A stretch of DNA of 30,384 bases from a virus: positions 1-30,384 of the IMG/VR virus record IMGVR_UViG_3300030329_002231. One strand, written 5' to 3'. The first letter of the stretch is position 1. Each line of letters begins with the position of its first letter. Shown here piece by piece: positions 23,320 through 26,856 of the stretch. A program made the position numbers and the translations under genes. Below the pieces are notes generated by a model. The model made no database searches. It worked only from the letters and a program-made list of their open reading frames with translations, and was not told the DNA's origin.

Positions 23320-24183
23320 ATGAGTAATCTGAACTTTAGAGTGATTGGATACGCACGGGTGAGCACTGAGGAGCAGGGGGCTGAAGGCCACAGCTTGGCC
23401 GAGCAGGTGGCTCGGATTAGGGCCTACGTCCGCTGCCACCCTGATATCGAACTGGTGGACATCATCACGGAGGTGGGCAGCGGCAAGGACATGAATCGAC
23501 CAGGACTACTGAAGGCACTCGCACGGCTCGATGACCACGGTATCGTCCGGGCGGTGGACGCAATCGTCGTTGTCGATCTGGATCGACTAACGCGAAACCT
23601 CCACAACCTGATCCAGATGGTCGAGGGTTACTTCAAGCCGAAGGGGGAGGGGGGCCTAATTTCCATCTCTGAGAACCTGGACCTCGCCACACCCACGGGA
23701 CGAATGCTTGTGTACTTCATTGGCCTGATCGCCCAGTGGCAACGAGAGCGTATCTCGGAACATTCGAAACGAACGGTTGCCCACCTAAAGACTCAGGGTA
23801 AGCGGTTTAACGCGCACCCACCTTACGGATTGATGGTGAATCCGGATAACCCGGCCTACCTGATTGACAGTCCGGAAGAGCGACGAACGCTGAGCAAGAT
23901 CAAGAGGATGAGGGAATCAGGCTGTAGCCTGAGAGACATTGCCTTCGCCTTGGAAAGCTCTCAGCGGTTCAACCGCAAGGGTAACCCGTTCACGATATCG
24001 GCAATCTCGAAAATGTGCCGCAAGAATGGGTTCCATGACAAACGCCACGAAACGGCTCTCTTGAGATCCGGTCAACCGTGTGATATCTGTGGGGAAACAA
24101 CCTGTCGCTACGACCAGTGCGACAAATGTAACTTCTGGCATGCTGAGTGTGAAGCCTGCGACAAGGATGCTGAGAAGAGTTGA
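23320..24183 (+). CDS. Small serine recombinase with C-terminal Cys cluster
   Basis: 287 aa. The N-terminal catalytic domain shows the resolvase/invertase signature VIGYARVSTEEQ (Arg13, nucleophile Ser15), SLAEQVARIRAY, and VDLDRLTRNL with the catalytic Arg. A recombinase-type helix-rich DNA-binding region follows (HPPYGLMVNPDNPAYLIDSPEERR, SLRDIAFALESS). The end is a Cys-rich segment CDICGETTCRYDQCDKCNFWHAECEAC, able to bind two zinc ions. At 287 aa it is too short for a typical large serine integrase (450-600 aa) and longer than Tn3 resolvase. It could resolve multimers, invert a segment or integrate. A GGGAGG site precedes the ATG. Confidence 0.88.
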   Translation: MSNLNFRVIGYARVSTEEQGAEGHSLAEQVARIRAYVRCHPDIELVDIITEVGSGKDMNRPGLLKALARLDDHGIVRAVDAIVVVDLDRLTRNLHNLIQMVEGYFKPKGEGGLISISENLDLATPTGRMLVYFIGLIAQWQRERISEHSKRTVAHLKTQGKRFNAHPPYGLMVNPDNPAYLIDSPEERRTLSKIKRMRESGCSLRDIAFALESSQRFNRKGNPFTISAISKMCRKNGFHDKRHETALLRSGQPCDICGETTCRYDQCDKCNFWHAECEACDKDAEKS

Positions 24184-24494
24184 CCTCCACCAATAACCCT
24201 GGTACTCTACCCGGTTCATAGTCAACGTCTCAGCCAGTACAGGTGAAGAGGCAGCCGGGCTGACGAAAGGTAGGTTGCGGACGAACGGCGTCCGGACTGG
24301 GGACACGCAAGACCTACTACCCGAGGCTGGCACGAGATTTTGACGCTTATTCTGGGTGGGGCACTGCAAAGTGTCGATAAGCCCGTTGTTTCCCCCGAAT
24401 CAAGCACCCTTTGGGTGGGTGCTTGATTTGAAGAGCCACTTAACCTAGATTAACCGTACTGTCTTCGTCCTCCATTGAAGATGGTCTAGGGTTC
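24184..24494 (+). other. Structured non-coding region after the recombinase
   Basis: No convincing gene is seen here. Several stems are visible: cagc/gctg (24252-24262), a longer stem gtaggttgcg with cgcaagacctac (24270-24279 with 24306-24317, two-base bulge), and an inner hairpin ggacg/cgtcc (24279-24293). A separate 12-bp hairpin is at 24398-24428. This could be a small RNA, a 3'-UTR or the target (res or att) site of the adjacent recombinase. No tRNA is seen. Confidence 0.5.
24398..24428. terminator. 12-bp perfect hairpin, terminator-like without U-tract
   Basis: Arms aatcaagcaccc and gggtgcttgatt, loop tttgggt. It lacks a clear U-tract on either strand, so it may be an RNA-stability element or part of a tandem terminator with the next one. 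Confidence 0.5.
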
Positions 24495-24533
24495 GCCGCC
24501 GGGGATTGGTCCCCCCGGCGGCTTCTTTTTTTT
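24495..24533 (+). terminator. Strong rho-independent terminator
   Basis: Arms gccgccgggg and ccccggcggc (24495-24504, 24513-24522), loop attggtcc, followed by ttctttttttt. It closes the first early transcript before the replication operon. Confidence 0.95.
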
Positions 24534-24544
24534 GCCCCTTCCTG

Positions 24545-24572
24545 TTGACAACCACAGGCCAAACGCTAAACT
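24545..24572 (+). promoter_or_regulatory. Promoter of the replication operon
   Basis: TTGACA (24545-24550, consensus) and TAAACT (24567-24572) with a 16-base spacer, directly after the terminator and 31 bases before the nuclease gene. The leader contains ccctagacc (24580-24588), also found just before the ribosome site of the first early gene (22511-22519). Confidence 0.8.
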
Positions 24573-24602
24573 GGCTCTCCCCTAGACCACAAGGAGGACA
24601 TC

Positions 24603-25571
24603 ATGGGAACCAAGCTCGACGCTGTAGACAAGCAGCGCATTCTTGTTCTGGCCGCAGCCTACGCCAAGCAGTGGGAGAACTACACTGCTGAAGTGGTGGA
24701 CCCCGAGGTCGACTTCGAGATCTCCCTTCCGGACACCGACTGGACCCTGGTCGGAAAGATTGACCTCCTGTGCCGAGACGAGCAGGGACTGGTCATGATT
24801 GAACACAAGACACGTAGCGCTGCCAGCATTACCAGCCAGTGGGATCCGTACTACCAGAAGCTCTCCTTCGATGCGCAGATCTCTGCCTACCACCTTGCCC
24901 AATTTGCCATCGGTGAGCCGATCAACAAGACCATCTACGATGTCATCAAGAAGATCACCACAAAACCTAAGGCCATTCCTAAGGGCTCTGAGGGGGCCAC
25001 AGGGACGCGCAGCGAGATTCTGGAGCATGGAACCTATTATGGGACCAAAGTCCCTAAGAAAGCCGCTGAGACCCCTTCGTCGCAGGAGGACGCACGGTTA
25101 TACGGAATGAGGATCGCCGCCGAGGTTGCAGCCGATCCGGACAGGTACTTCCATCAATACTCGCTTATCCATCGTAGTCGACGCCAGATCAAGGATACAG
25201 CACGGCAATTGATCCAACTCACACGAGACATTGACCGGGCCAAGCTGGATGGGGCTTGGTACCAGAATACCAGCAACTGCTTCTCCTATGGGAGTACCTG
25301 CGAGTACTTCGATCTGTGCCTGGGCATCAGCGACCCAGAGGACCCTGAGAAGTGGAAGCAACGCGATGGCTCCGATCTCTCTGGAGATCGTCGCCTCTCG
25401 CATTCACGCGCAACATGCTTCCAGTCCTGCCGCCGTAAGTATTACTGGCGGTACGACAGGAAGATCCAACCCGTTAAGCCGGAGTCAACGGCCTTACGCT
25501 TCGGCAAGGTATTTCATGAGGCCCTAGAGACTTTTTGGAAAAGGAGGAAAGAATGCCAGAAGCAAAAGTAA
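24603..25571 (+). CDS. PD-(D/E)XK nuclease (Cas4/RecB-like), apparently circularly permuted
   Basis: 322 aa. ATG 24603 with AAGGAGG upstream. Nuclease motifs: GKIDLL (Asp54), VMIEHKT (Glu67, Lys69), then QISAYHLA (Gln92). Three cysteines in CFSYGSTCEYFDLC (about 226, 233, 239) match the C-terminal part of a Cas4/AddB-type Fe-S cluster. Residues 265-322 carry LSHSRATCFQSCRRKYYWRY and LRFGKVFHEALETFW, which in the canonical family form the N-terminus and supply the first Cys (here about Cys276). So the order is inverted. The gene ends soon after that segment and overlaps the next gene by 19 bases. Likely a 5'-3' exonuclease for recombination. Confidence 0.85.
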   Translation: MGTKLDAVDKQRILVLAAAYAKQWENYTAEVVDPEVDFEISLPDTDWTLVGKIDLLCRDEQGLVMIEHKTRSAASITSQWDPYYQKLSFDAQISAYHLAQFAIGEPINKTIYDVIKKITTKPKAIPKGSEGATGTRSEILEHGTYYGTKVPKKAAETPSSQEDARLYGMRIAAEVAADPDRYFHQYSLIHRSRRQIKDTARQLIQLTRDIDRAKLDGAWYQNTSNCFSYGSTCEYFDLCLGISDPEDPEKWKQRDGSDLSGDRRLSHSRATCFQSCRRKYYWRYDRKIQPVKPESTALRFGKVFHEALETFWKRRKECQKQK

Positions 25572-26377
25572 AGGCTGCTGGTGCAAGAGTGAAGTCGCTT
25601 TTGACAGAAGTATCGACCACCGGGAGGGGTCTTAAGCCAGCCATGGTTATCCATGGTCCCGAGAAATCGGGCAAGACCTCGCTGGCCGCTTGGGCCAAGA
25701 ATCCATTCTTTCTAATGTCTCACGGTGAGACAGGACTGGAGACGCTGATCGATCACGGGCAGTTGGGCGAAACCGCTCACATGCCGGAGGTCACGACTTG
25801 GAAGCGATTGCTGGAGTGTCTAGACGCACTCCTGTCGGAAGGTCATGACTACGAGACCGTGGTGCTCGACACCCTCAACGGCTTCGAGGACATGCTCTAC
25901 GATTACGTCTGCGAGACCGAGTACAACGGTGATCGCGGACCCCGTGGGTTCCTTTCGTATATGCAAGGCTACCAGTCTGCCACGCCACACTGGCAGGGCA
26001 TGCTGCGAACCCTTGATCAACTCCGAGAGAAGAAGAACATGACGGTCATTGGCCTGTGCCACACACAGATCAAGGCTTTCAAGAACCCGGCTGGTCAGGA
26101 CTACGACCGGTACCAGCCACAGATGCACGCCAGACAGTGGGGAGCCACCCACAAATGGGCTGACATCATCATGTTCCTCGACACGGTCACAGTGATCGAC
26201 GAGGAGGGGAACCGCCCCAAGGCCAAAGGGGGCACCCAGCGAGTTGCTCGATGTGAACGGGCTGCTGCATGGGATGCGGGAAACCGCTACGGCATCAAGG
26301 AGTTCTCCCTCGGCAGCTCTGCCAAGGAAGGTTGGACGAATTTTATCGAAGCAATGAAGAAAGCGAGGAAAAAATGA
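25553..26377 (+). CDS. Sak4-like RecA-fold ATPase
   Basis: 274 aa from ATG 25553 (AAAAGGAGG upstream); an earlier in-frame start at 25535 lies before that ribosome site. Walker A GPEKSGKTS (residues about 35-43), Walker B-type ETVVLDTLNGFE, then MTVIGLCHTQIKAFKNP with the sensor-like HTQ, and QWGATHKWADIIMFLD. This is the layout of phage nucleotide-binding proteins of the Sak4/AAA_24 group, which promote single-strand annealing. It lies between the nuclease and a probable ssDNA-binding gene, the usual recombination cassette. The stop overlaps the next start as ATGA. Confidence 0.85.
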   Translation: MPEAKVKAAGARVKSLLTEVSTTGRGLKPAMVIHGPEKSGKTSLAAWAKNPFFLMSHGETGLETLIDHGQLGETAHMPEVTTWKRLLECLDALLSEGHDYETVVLDTLNGFEDMLYDYVCETEYNGDRGPRGFLSYMQGYQSATPHWQGMLRTLDQLREKKNMTVIGLCHTQIKAFKNPAGQDYDRYQPQMHARQWGATHKWADIIMFLDTVTVIDEEGNRPKAKGGTQRVARCERAAAWDAGNRYGIKEFSLGSSAKEGWTNFIEAMKKARKK

Positions 26378-26856
26378 GCACGCAACTACAACCCGGTAAG
26401 TATTTCTGTCGAGTTACCGACCAGGAACTTCGCCAGAGCAAGAAGGGCAACTGGATGGTTGTCTTGGACATTGAGCCCCTACTGTTCGAACCCAAGGGGA
26501 GCACGGACACGGAGGCCGTCGAAGACGCTGGTACACGGCGATACTACGGCACCCTCACCAAGAAGAGCGTCAAGATCGTTCAGCGTGAGCTGGAGACGCT
26601 TGGATTCAAGGGTGGCAAGCCGTCAGACATCCACACGAAGAAGAACGGTGCTGACTTGACTAACACTGAAGGCTGGTGGCTACTGAGCTACCAAGACTCT
26701 CAGGATGGTGGCGACCCGTTTGAAAAATGGAGAGTATTCACTCCAAGGGAATCCGCAGGCCCGTCGCCCGTCACAGACAGCGAGCTGATGGAACTGGATG
26801 CACTGTTTGGGGATGAGTTCGGTGGTGACACCGGTTTCGTTGAGACTGACCTCTAG
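26374..26856 (+). CDS. Probable ssDNA-binding protein partner of the Sak4-like ATPase
   Basis: 160 aa from ATG 26374, which forms an ATGA overlap with the ATPase gene; an upstream in-frame start at 26269 lies inside that gene and is rejected. N-terminus PGKYFCRVTDQELRQSKKGNWMVVLDIEP has the G-x-Y ... K-K-G-N ... hydrophobic-strand pattern of OB-fold or DUF669-like phage proteins. A strand-rich middle follows, then an acidic tail (ELMELDALFGDEFGGDTG) like the C-termini through which SSBs recruit partners. Identification is by pattern and context. Confidence 0.65.
   Translation: MSTQLQPGKYFCRVTDQELRQSKKGNWMVVLDIEPLLFEPKGSTDTEAVEDAGTRRYYGTLTKKSVKIVQRELETLGFKGGKPSDIHTKKNGADLTNTEGWWLLSYQDSQDGGDPFEKWRVFTPRESAGPSPVTDSELMELDALFGDEFGGDTGFVETDL

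Follow-up and report, generated by a model that had tools for sequence, protein, structure and literature searches.

Cas4 nucleases such as SSO0001 and Pcal_0546 combine the RecB nuclease motifs with a four-cysteine iron-sulfur (Fe-S) site, the 'iron staple', in which one cysteine lies near the N-terminus and three lie near the C-terminus; published reports differ as to whether cleavage requires the cluster (PMC4176176). Phage Cas4-like exonucleases of the phrog_1218 type, encoded next to sak4 (our locus L016; Pseudomonas phages Almagne and PMBT14; Yersinia phage P744), carry the same motifs and four cysteines, and the nuclease domains of AdnA/AdnB and AddB, which are fused to helicases, are likewise of canonical order. 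Here, we analyzed positions 1 to 30,384 of the IMG/VR virus record IMGVR_UViG_3300030329_002231 (the window, that is, the whole stretch of 30,384 nucleotides). Its open reading frame at 24603-25571 on the plus strand encodes a predicted exonuclease of 322 amino acids, P0001, that shares the motifs, the four cysteines and the place before sak4 with the phrog_1218-type enzymes and aligns with them over its full length once rotated. It differs from them in being circularly permuted, and it lacks one short helix that in their chain comes after the motif I helix and before the following long helix. With Cas4, P0001 has the RecB motifs and the four cysteines of the presumed Fe-S site in common, yet it is not CRISPR-associated, it is longer, and its order is permuted.

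Motif order, rotation and distribution

Upon translation, P0001 reads GKID (residues 51-54), EHK (67-69), Q92/Y96, C226, C233 and C239, then a linker, and only then C276 and H305, which bears out the motif order claimed by an earlier note made from the DNA letters alone. G51/D54 correspond to GxxD (RecB motif II), E67/K69 to (D/E)xK (motif III), and G301/H305 to GxxxHxxLE (motif I). C276 sits in SCRRKYYWRY and H305 in FGKVFHEALE, both of which follow the three clustered cysteines. Profile matches are split in the same manner. Residues 15-250 align with positions 102-340 of the phrog_1218 profile ('exonuclease', E 5e-32), positions 1-51 of PF12705, the start of that family, match residues 264-316 at the end of the protein (E 3e-18), and a hidden Markov model (HMM) of the canonical N-module matches the C-terminal segment (E 2e-23).

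We rotated P0001 at every residue and scored each version against a profile of 16 canonical relatives, recording the best single-domain score. It rose from 166 bits for the unrotated sequence to 225 bits at rotation 257, with a plateau at 253-262, and 200 shuffles of the sequence scored at most 4 bits. The other aligned permuted members (38/38) also score higher on the canonical profile once rotated and, in the converse test, canonical proteins rotated the opposite way gain score on the permuted profile. Rotation thus makes the match both better and full-length, and the score peaks where the former termini are joined. The shift at residue 264 that had been suggested as an in-silico check proved equally telling: so rotated, P0001 recovered by tblastn the exonucleases of Yersinia phage P744, Pseudomonas phage Almagne and an Oceanotoga phage over 93% of its length, whereas unrotated it matched no canonical phage exonuclease. 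Unrotated, it found just two annotated phages, Tunturiibacter phages Tunturi_1 and Tunturi_2, whose homologues match it from end to end and have the permuted order, an illustration of how sequential searches half-match or miss permuted proteins. P0001 is a true circular permutant of the Cas4/RecB-like phage exonucleases.

The permuted form is a genuine phage lineage and not an assembly error. IMG/VR was scanned with one, then 4, then 13 permuted members as queries, which brought in many further loci, and the two modules were profiled separately to read their order in each locus. The C-module precedes the N-module in 52 loci besides the window, making 44 distinct sequences with the window included; in canonical relatives the same profiles place the N-module first. 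Because the motif order II-III-QxxxY-I holds in all 44 sequences, we assign them to a permuted variant rather than to the canonical PD-(D/E)XK RecB/Cas4-like members. Tunturi_1 and Tunturi_2 are isolated phages with complete genomes. Each of nine permuted-form contigs that we checked holds one copy and no canonical second copy, and all aligned permuted members (39/39) match phrog_1218. A module at both ends of one protein, the arrangement that the earlier note had held would speak against permutation, was absent from about 100 loci. The window's own subclade consists of P0001 and three relatives (L001, L035 and L039) that are 58-68% identical. A plasmid search with P0001 gave no match, and bacterial and archaeal genomes, scanned once, yielded a single canonical-type match, the permuted form not being seen at that sensitivity.

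Predicted fold, active site and seam

AlphaFold2 produced a confident model of P0001 from 39 sequences (predicted local distance difference test, pLDDT, 93.0; predicted template-modeling score, pTM, 0.86) and a comparable one of the canonical L016 protein from 16 sequences (pLDDT 92.0, pTM 0.85). Even the lowest ten-residue blocks of the P0001 model score 81-86, so that the single chain is confident throughout. Its order of elements is the L016 order rotated, minus one helix. The strands at the two ends of L016 (residues 9-11 and 325-327) have counterparts in P0001 at 264-265 and 251-253, where they flank a short seam loop. P0001 is predicted to adopt the same fold as its canonical relatives, and the structure prediction, which the earlier note had asked for, speaks in favor of permutation.

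For the canonical model, Foldseek found matches in AdnA, in AddB and in the Cas4-family protein ACE1, with the AdnA/AdnB and AddB nuclease domains (9np6, 6ppr, 3u44) among its best solved structural relatives. By contrast, the permuted model matched the AdnA/AddB/Cas4 families in part only (about 90-220 columns at template-modeling (TM) scores <= 0.25 for AdnA/AdnB and AddB; likewise partially for the Cas4 structure 4ic1), which is expected because Foldseek aligns sequentially. One viral model in BFVD, A0A6J5NSY1 from an uncultured Caudovirales phage, matched the permuted model over its full length (TM 0.83/0.78, root-mean-square deviation 3.0). It is annotated only as 'PD-(D/E)XK nuclease superfamily' and, by structural match alone, is presumably another permuted member. 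Sequence searches of the PDB gave no useful relative for the single protein and only weak AdnA matches with profiles.

The residues expected to matter for catalysis have survived the rearrangement. D54, (D/E)67-x-K69, Q92, Y96 and H305 are kept across the 39 aligned permuted members, as are C226, C233, C239 and C276 (39/39), and the 16 canonical relatives keep the corresponding catalytic and cysteine residues. The catalytic residues persist even in members only 23-28% identical to P0001. All four cysteines of the iron-staple pattern are present, yet they are placed as C226, C233, C239 and then C276: the first clustered cysteine lies 50-62 residues from the fourth in permuted proteins and 233-287 in canonical ones. 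The active site and the four-cysteine Fe-S site are predicted to be unchanged by the permutation. In P0001 the four cysteines would come together in space and probably hold an Fe-S cluster, and we likewise infer the nuclease activity of the protein and its polarity.

Close examination of the seam revealed the traces of both old chain ends. Canonical tails have the form F-R-x-V-E-x-V-H-E-E-L and canonical starts read LTNSEIKTFxxC; across the linker, the majority of permuted proteins have W-Q-x-K-x-V-H-x-E-L-P...G-R-D-V-LTNSRIRCFQTC. In these proteins, the canonical tail (VHxEL) thus directly precedes the canonical start (LTNS), so that both former termini persist back to back. The joint is short and varies rather little in length, with 37-49 residues between the third and fourth cysteines. 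The new termini fall in a variable loop that connects the helix after GxxxHxxLE to the long helix that follows. In canonical proteins, 28-51 residues separate the motif I histidine from the GY of this second helix, and the L016 model places there the extra helix (residues 67-81) that P0001 lacks.

Origin of the permutation and alternative readings

Taken together, we consider it very likely that P0001 is a working PD-(D/E)XK exonuclease of the iron-staple kind, circularly permuted with its fold and sites unchanged, that serves a Sak4 module and arose by duplication and trimming, probably once. The simplest and most likely route would be that the exonuclease gene was duplicated in tandem and in frame and then lost its outer parts. 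In the canonical fold, the Fe-S cluster ties the old N- and C-termini together and so keeps them side by side; the chain itself would now join them, and new termini would have opened in the loop that links the motif I helix to the following long helix. Duplication with trimming would leave both former termini at the seam. The best trees built on the rotated sequences require one change to account for the permuted form, and a single change suffices in 80% of bootstrap trees when all rows are included and in 88% in a second version that leaves out five long canonical rows. The permutation thus probably happened once, before the lineage spread.

Several observations weigh against this scenario. 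No duplication intermediate, which would carry a module at both ends, was found among the about 100 loci, so the duplication route is one that we infer only. Support for the single-origin branch is moderate (84/76 and 88/36), the window's small subclade sits on a long branch, and its linker is shorter and lacks VHxEL. The long branch and the divergent linker would also fit two independent permutations at the same seam, one in the window's subclade and one in the large clade, and more than one change is needed in 12-20% of bootstrap trees. We regard two origins as unlikely, though worth keeping in mind: the best trees require one change, and both groups have the cut in the same inter-helix loop and share the Sak4 neighborhood.

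Other readings concern the protein itself. The C-terminal segment might be an extra copy of the N-module, serving as a regulatory domain or as the start of a fused second nuclease, with the true N-module lost or missed through a wrong gene start. The segment alone is indeed recognizable as the start of PF12705. However, the reading frame 5' of the ATG closes after 11 codons, so P0001 has no hidden N-terminal copy of the module; the 44 distinct sequences, complete phage genomes included, are alike; and an enzyme that keeps all other motifs would then be without the motif I histidine and the fourth cysteine. We therefore find this reading very improbable. That P0001 is an inactive relic, or that it serves Sak4 in a purely structural way, is hardly more credible given how the catalytic D, (D/E)xK, Q, Y and His persist among the most divergent members. 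Somewhat less remote, if still improbable, is a domain-swapped oligomer in which the C-terminal segment reaches over to complete a neighboring chain's active site instead of its own. Such an arrangement is compatible with the sequence, and a single-chain prediction cannot reveal swapping, but the confidence of the single-chain model throughout and the short, rather constant joint argue against it. As the window is a metagenomic virus contig, an assembly or recombination artefact of one contig had also to be considered. Its probability is next to nil: many independent IMG/VR contigs, and the genomes of Tunturi_1 and Tunturi_2 as well, share the order, a recurrence that rules out an artefact and upholds the view of the earlier note that this is no assembly break.

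Finally, the permutation may be functional rather than neutral. The freed motif I helix, whose coding end overlaps the start of sak4, would serve as a docking end for Sak4 or the single-stranded DNA-binding protein (SSB), and the joined termini would make the Fe-S cluster dispensable for folding, leaving it free as a local redox- or DNA-sensing element. We think this rather unlikely.

Neighborhood and implications

The features of the locus are listed in the table below. A Sak4-like gene lies directly 3' of the exonuclease in 52/53 permuted loci (window included), the contig of the exception ending there, and most canonical loci show the same exonuclease-sak4 arrangement. In the window, the start codon of sak4 (25553) and its ribosome-binding site (25541-25547) fall inside the end of the exonuclease gene, and Sak4 is followed by an SSB-like gene, a DnaB-like helicase and a RusA-like resolvase. 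Together with a serine recombinase on the 5' side, these are the neighbors of the exonuclease, and there is no association with cas1/cas2. The Sak4 of phage HK620 has single-strand annealing activity that is stimulated by its cognate SSB (PMC5928155). Judging from its family and gene context, the exonuclease would most likely resect phage DNA, providing single strands for the adjacent Sak4 and SSB in a phage recombination module. As for the gene's own expression signals, which the earlier note had taken to be a promoter and a ribosome-binding site, the latter is present, whereas the promoter is a consensus match only. A strong terminator-like hairpin of 10 GC pairs (24495-24522; likewise a consensus match only) lies just 5' of it.

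Features of the exonuclease locus in the window
Feature	Coordinates	Strand	Basis
Promoter-like site TTGACA-16-TAAACT	24545..24572	+	Consensus match only
Ribosome-binding site AAGGAGG	24591..24597	+	Sequence
Circularly permuted Cas4/RecB-like (PD-(D/E)XK, phrog_1218-like) exonuclease gene, 322 aa	24603..25571	+	
Counterpart of the canonical C-terminal module (residues about 11-241): helix, GKID, EHK, QxxxY, three presumed Fe-S Cys	24633..25325	+	Module HMM, invariant columns
RecB motif II GKID (D54)	24753..24764	+	G51, D54 invariant in 39 permuted members
RecB motif III EHK (E67, K69); DHK in relatives outside the window's subclade	24801..24809	+	
QxxxY motif (Q92, Y96)	24876..24890	+	Invariant
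Presumed Fe-S cysteines C226, C233, C239	25278..25319	+	39/39 members
Seam/linker, residues 242-264, former C-terminus to former N-terminus	25326..25394	+	Rotation scan
Counterpart of the canonical N-terminal module (residues 265-317): C276, motif I FGKVFHEALE with H305	25395..25553	+	Module HMM, PF12705
Sak4-like single-strand annealing protein (AAA_24)	25553..26377	+	phrog_124 E 1e-32, PF13479, synteny
SSB-like open reading frame, third module member; true start probably further in	26269..26856	+	phrog_378 E 0.0019, position conserved in relatives

Several neighboring features deserve mention in their own right. The serine recombinase (Resolvase domain, integrase-like phrog_95; 23320-24183, plus strand) is separated from the exonuclease by a conserved, probably structured non-coding RNA at 24211-24450, which L001, L035 and L039 have in the same position. 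From the four sequences, RNAalifold yields 52 pairs, 15 of them with double-sided compensatory changes, and a covariance model of the element matches only the window's own subclade among the loci examined. An Rfam scan upstream of the exonuclease found no known RNA, the element itself being without a match at E<=1. Elsewhere in the window, the minus-strand reading frame at 18543-19415 matches phrog_3704 ('ferredoxin', E 2e-50) and no Pfam family, an odd gene for a phage. The canonical exonuclease nearest the permuted clade in the tree (L018, 4251-5330) is unlike most in that its best Sak4 match does not start right behind the exonuclease end; that reading frame starts 1116 bp before it.

While the enzyme family itself is known, its permuted lineage has apparently not been described so far. 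Our literature search found no permuted Cas4/RecB enzyme, although prior notice elsewhere in the PD-(D/E)XK superfamily may exist, and a paper on Cas4 phylogenomics does not mention permutation. Natural circular permutation of a catalytic nuclease fold is unusual. Catalytic folds are also circularly permuted in the DNA adenine methylases of jumbo phages (PMC7824862) and in the HD domain of type III Cas10 (PMC10212523), both of which are unrelated in fold. The permuted lineage amounts to a natural experiment on the iron staple: the ends that the Fe-S cluster ties together in canonical enzymes are here covalently joined, and the four cysteines are still kept. Because the need of the cluster for cleavage is disputed (PMC4176176), this lineage lets one ask what purpose the cluster serves.
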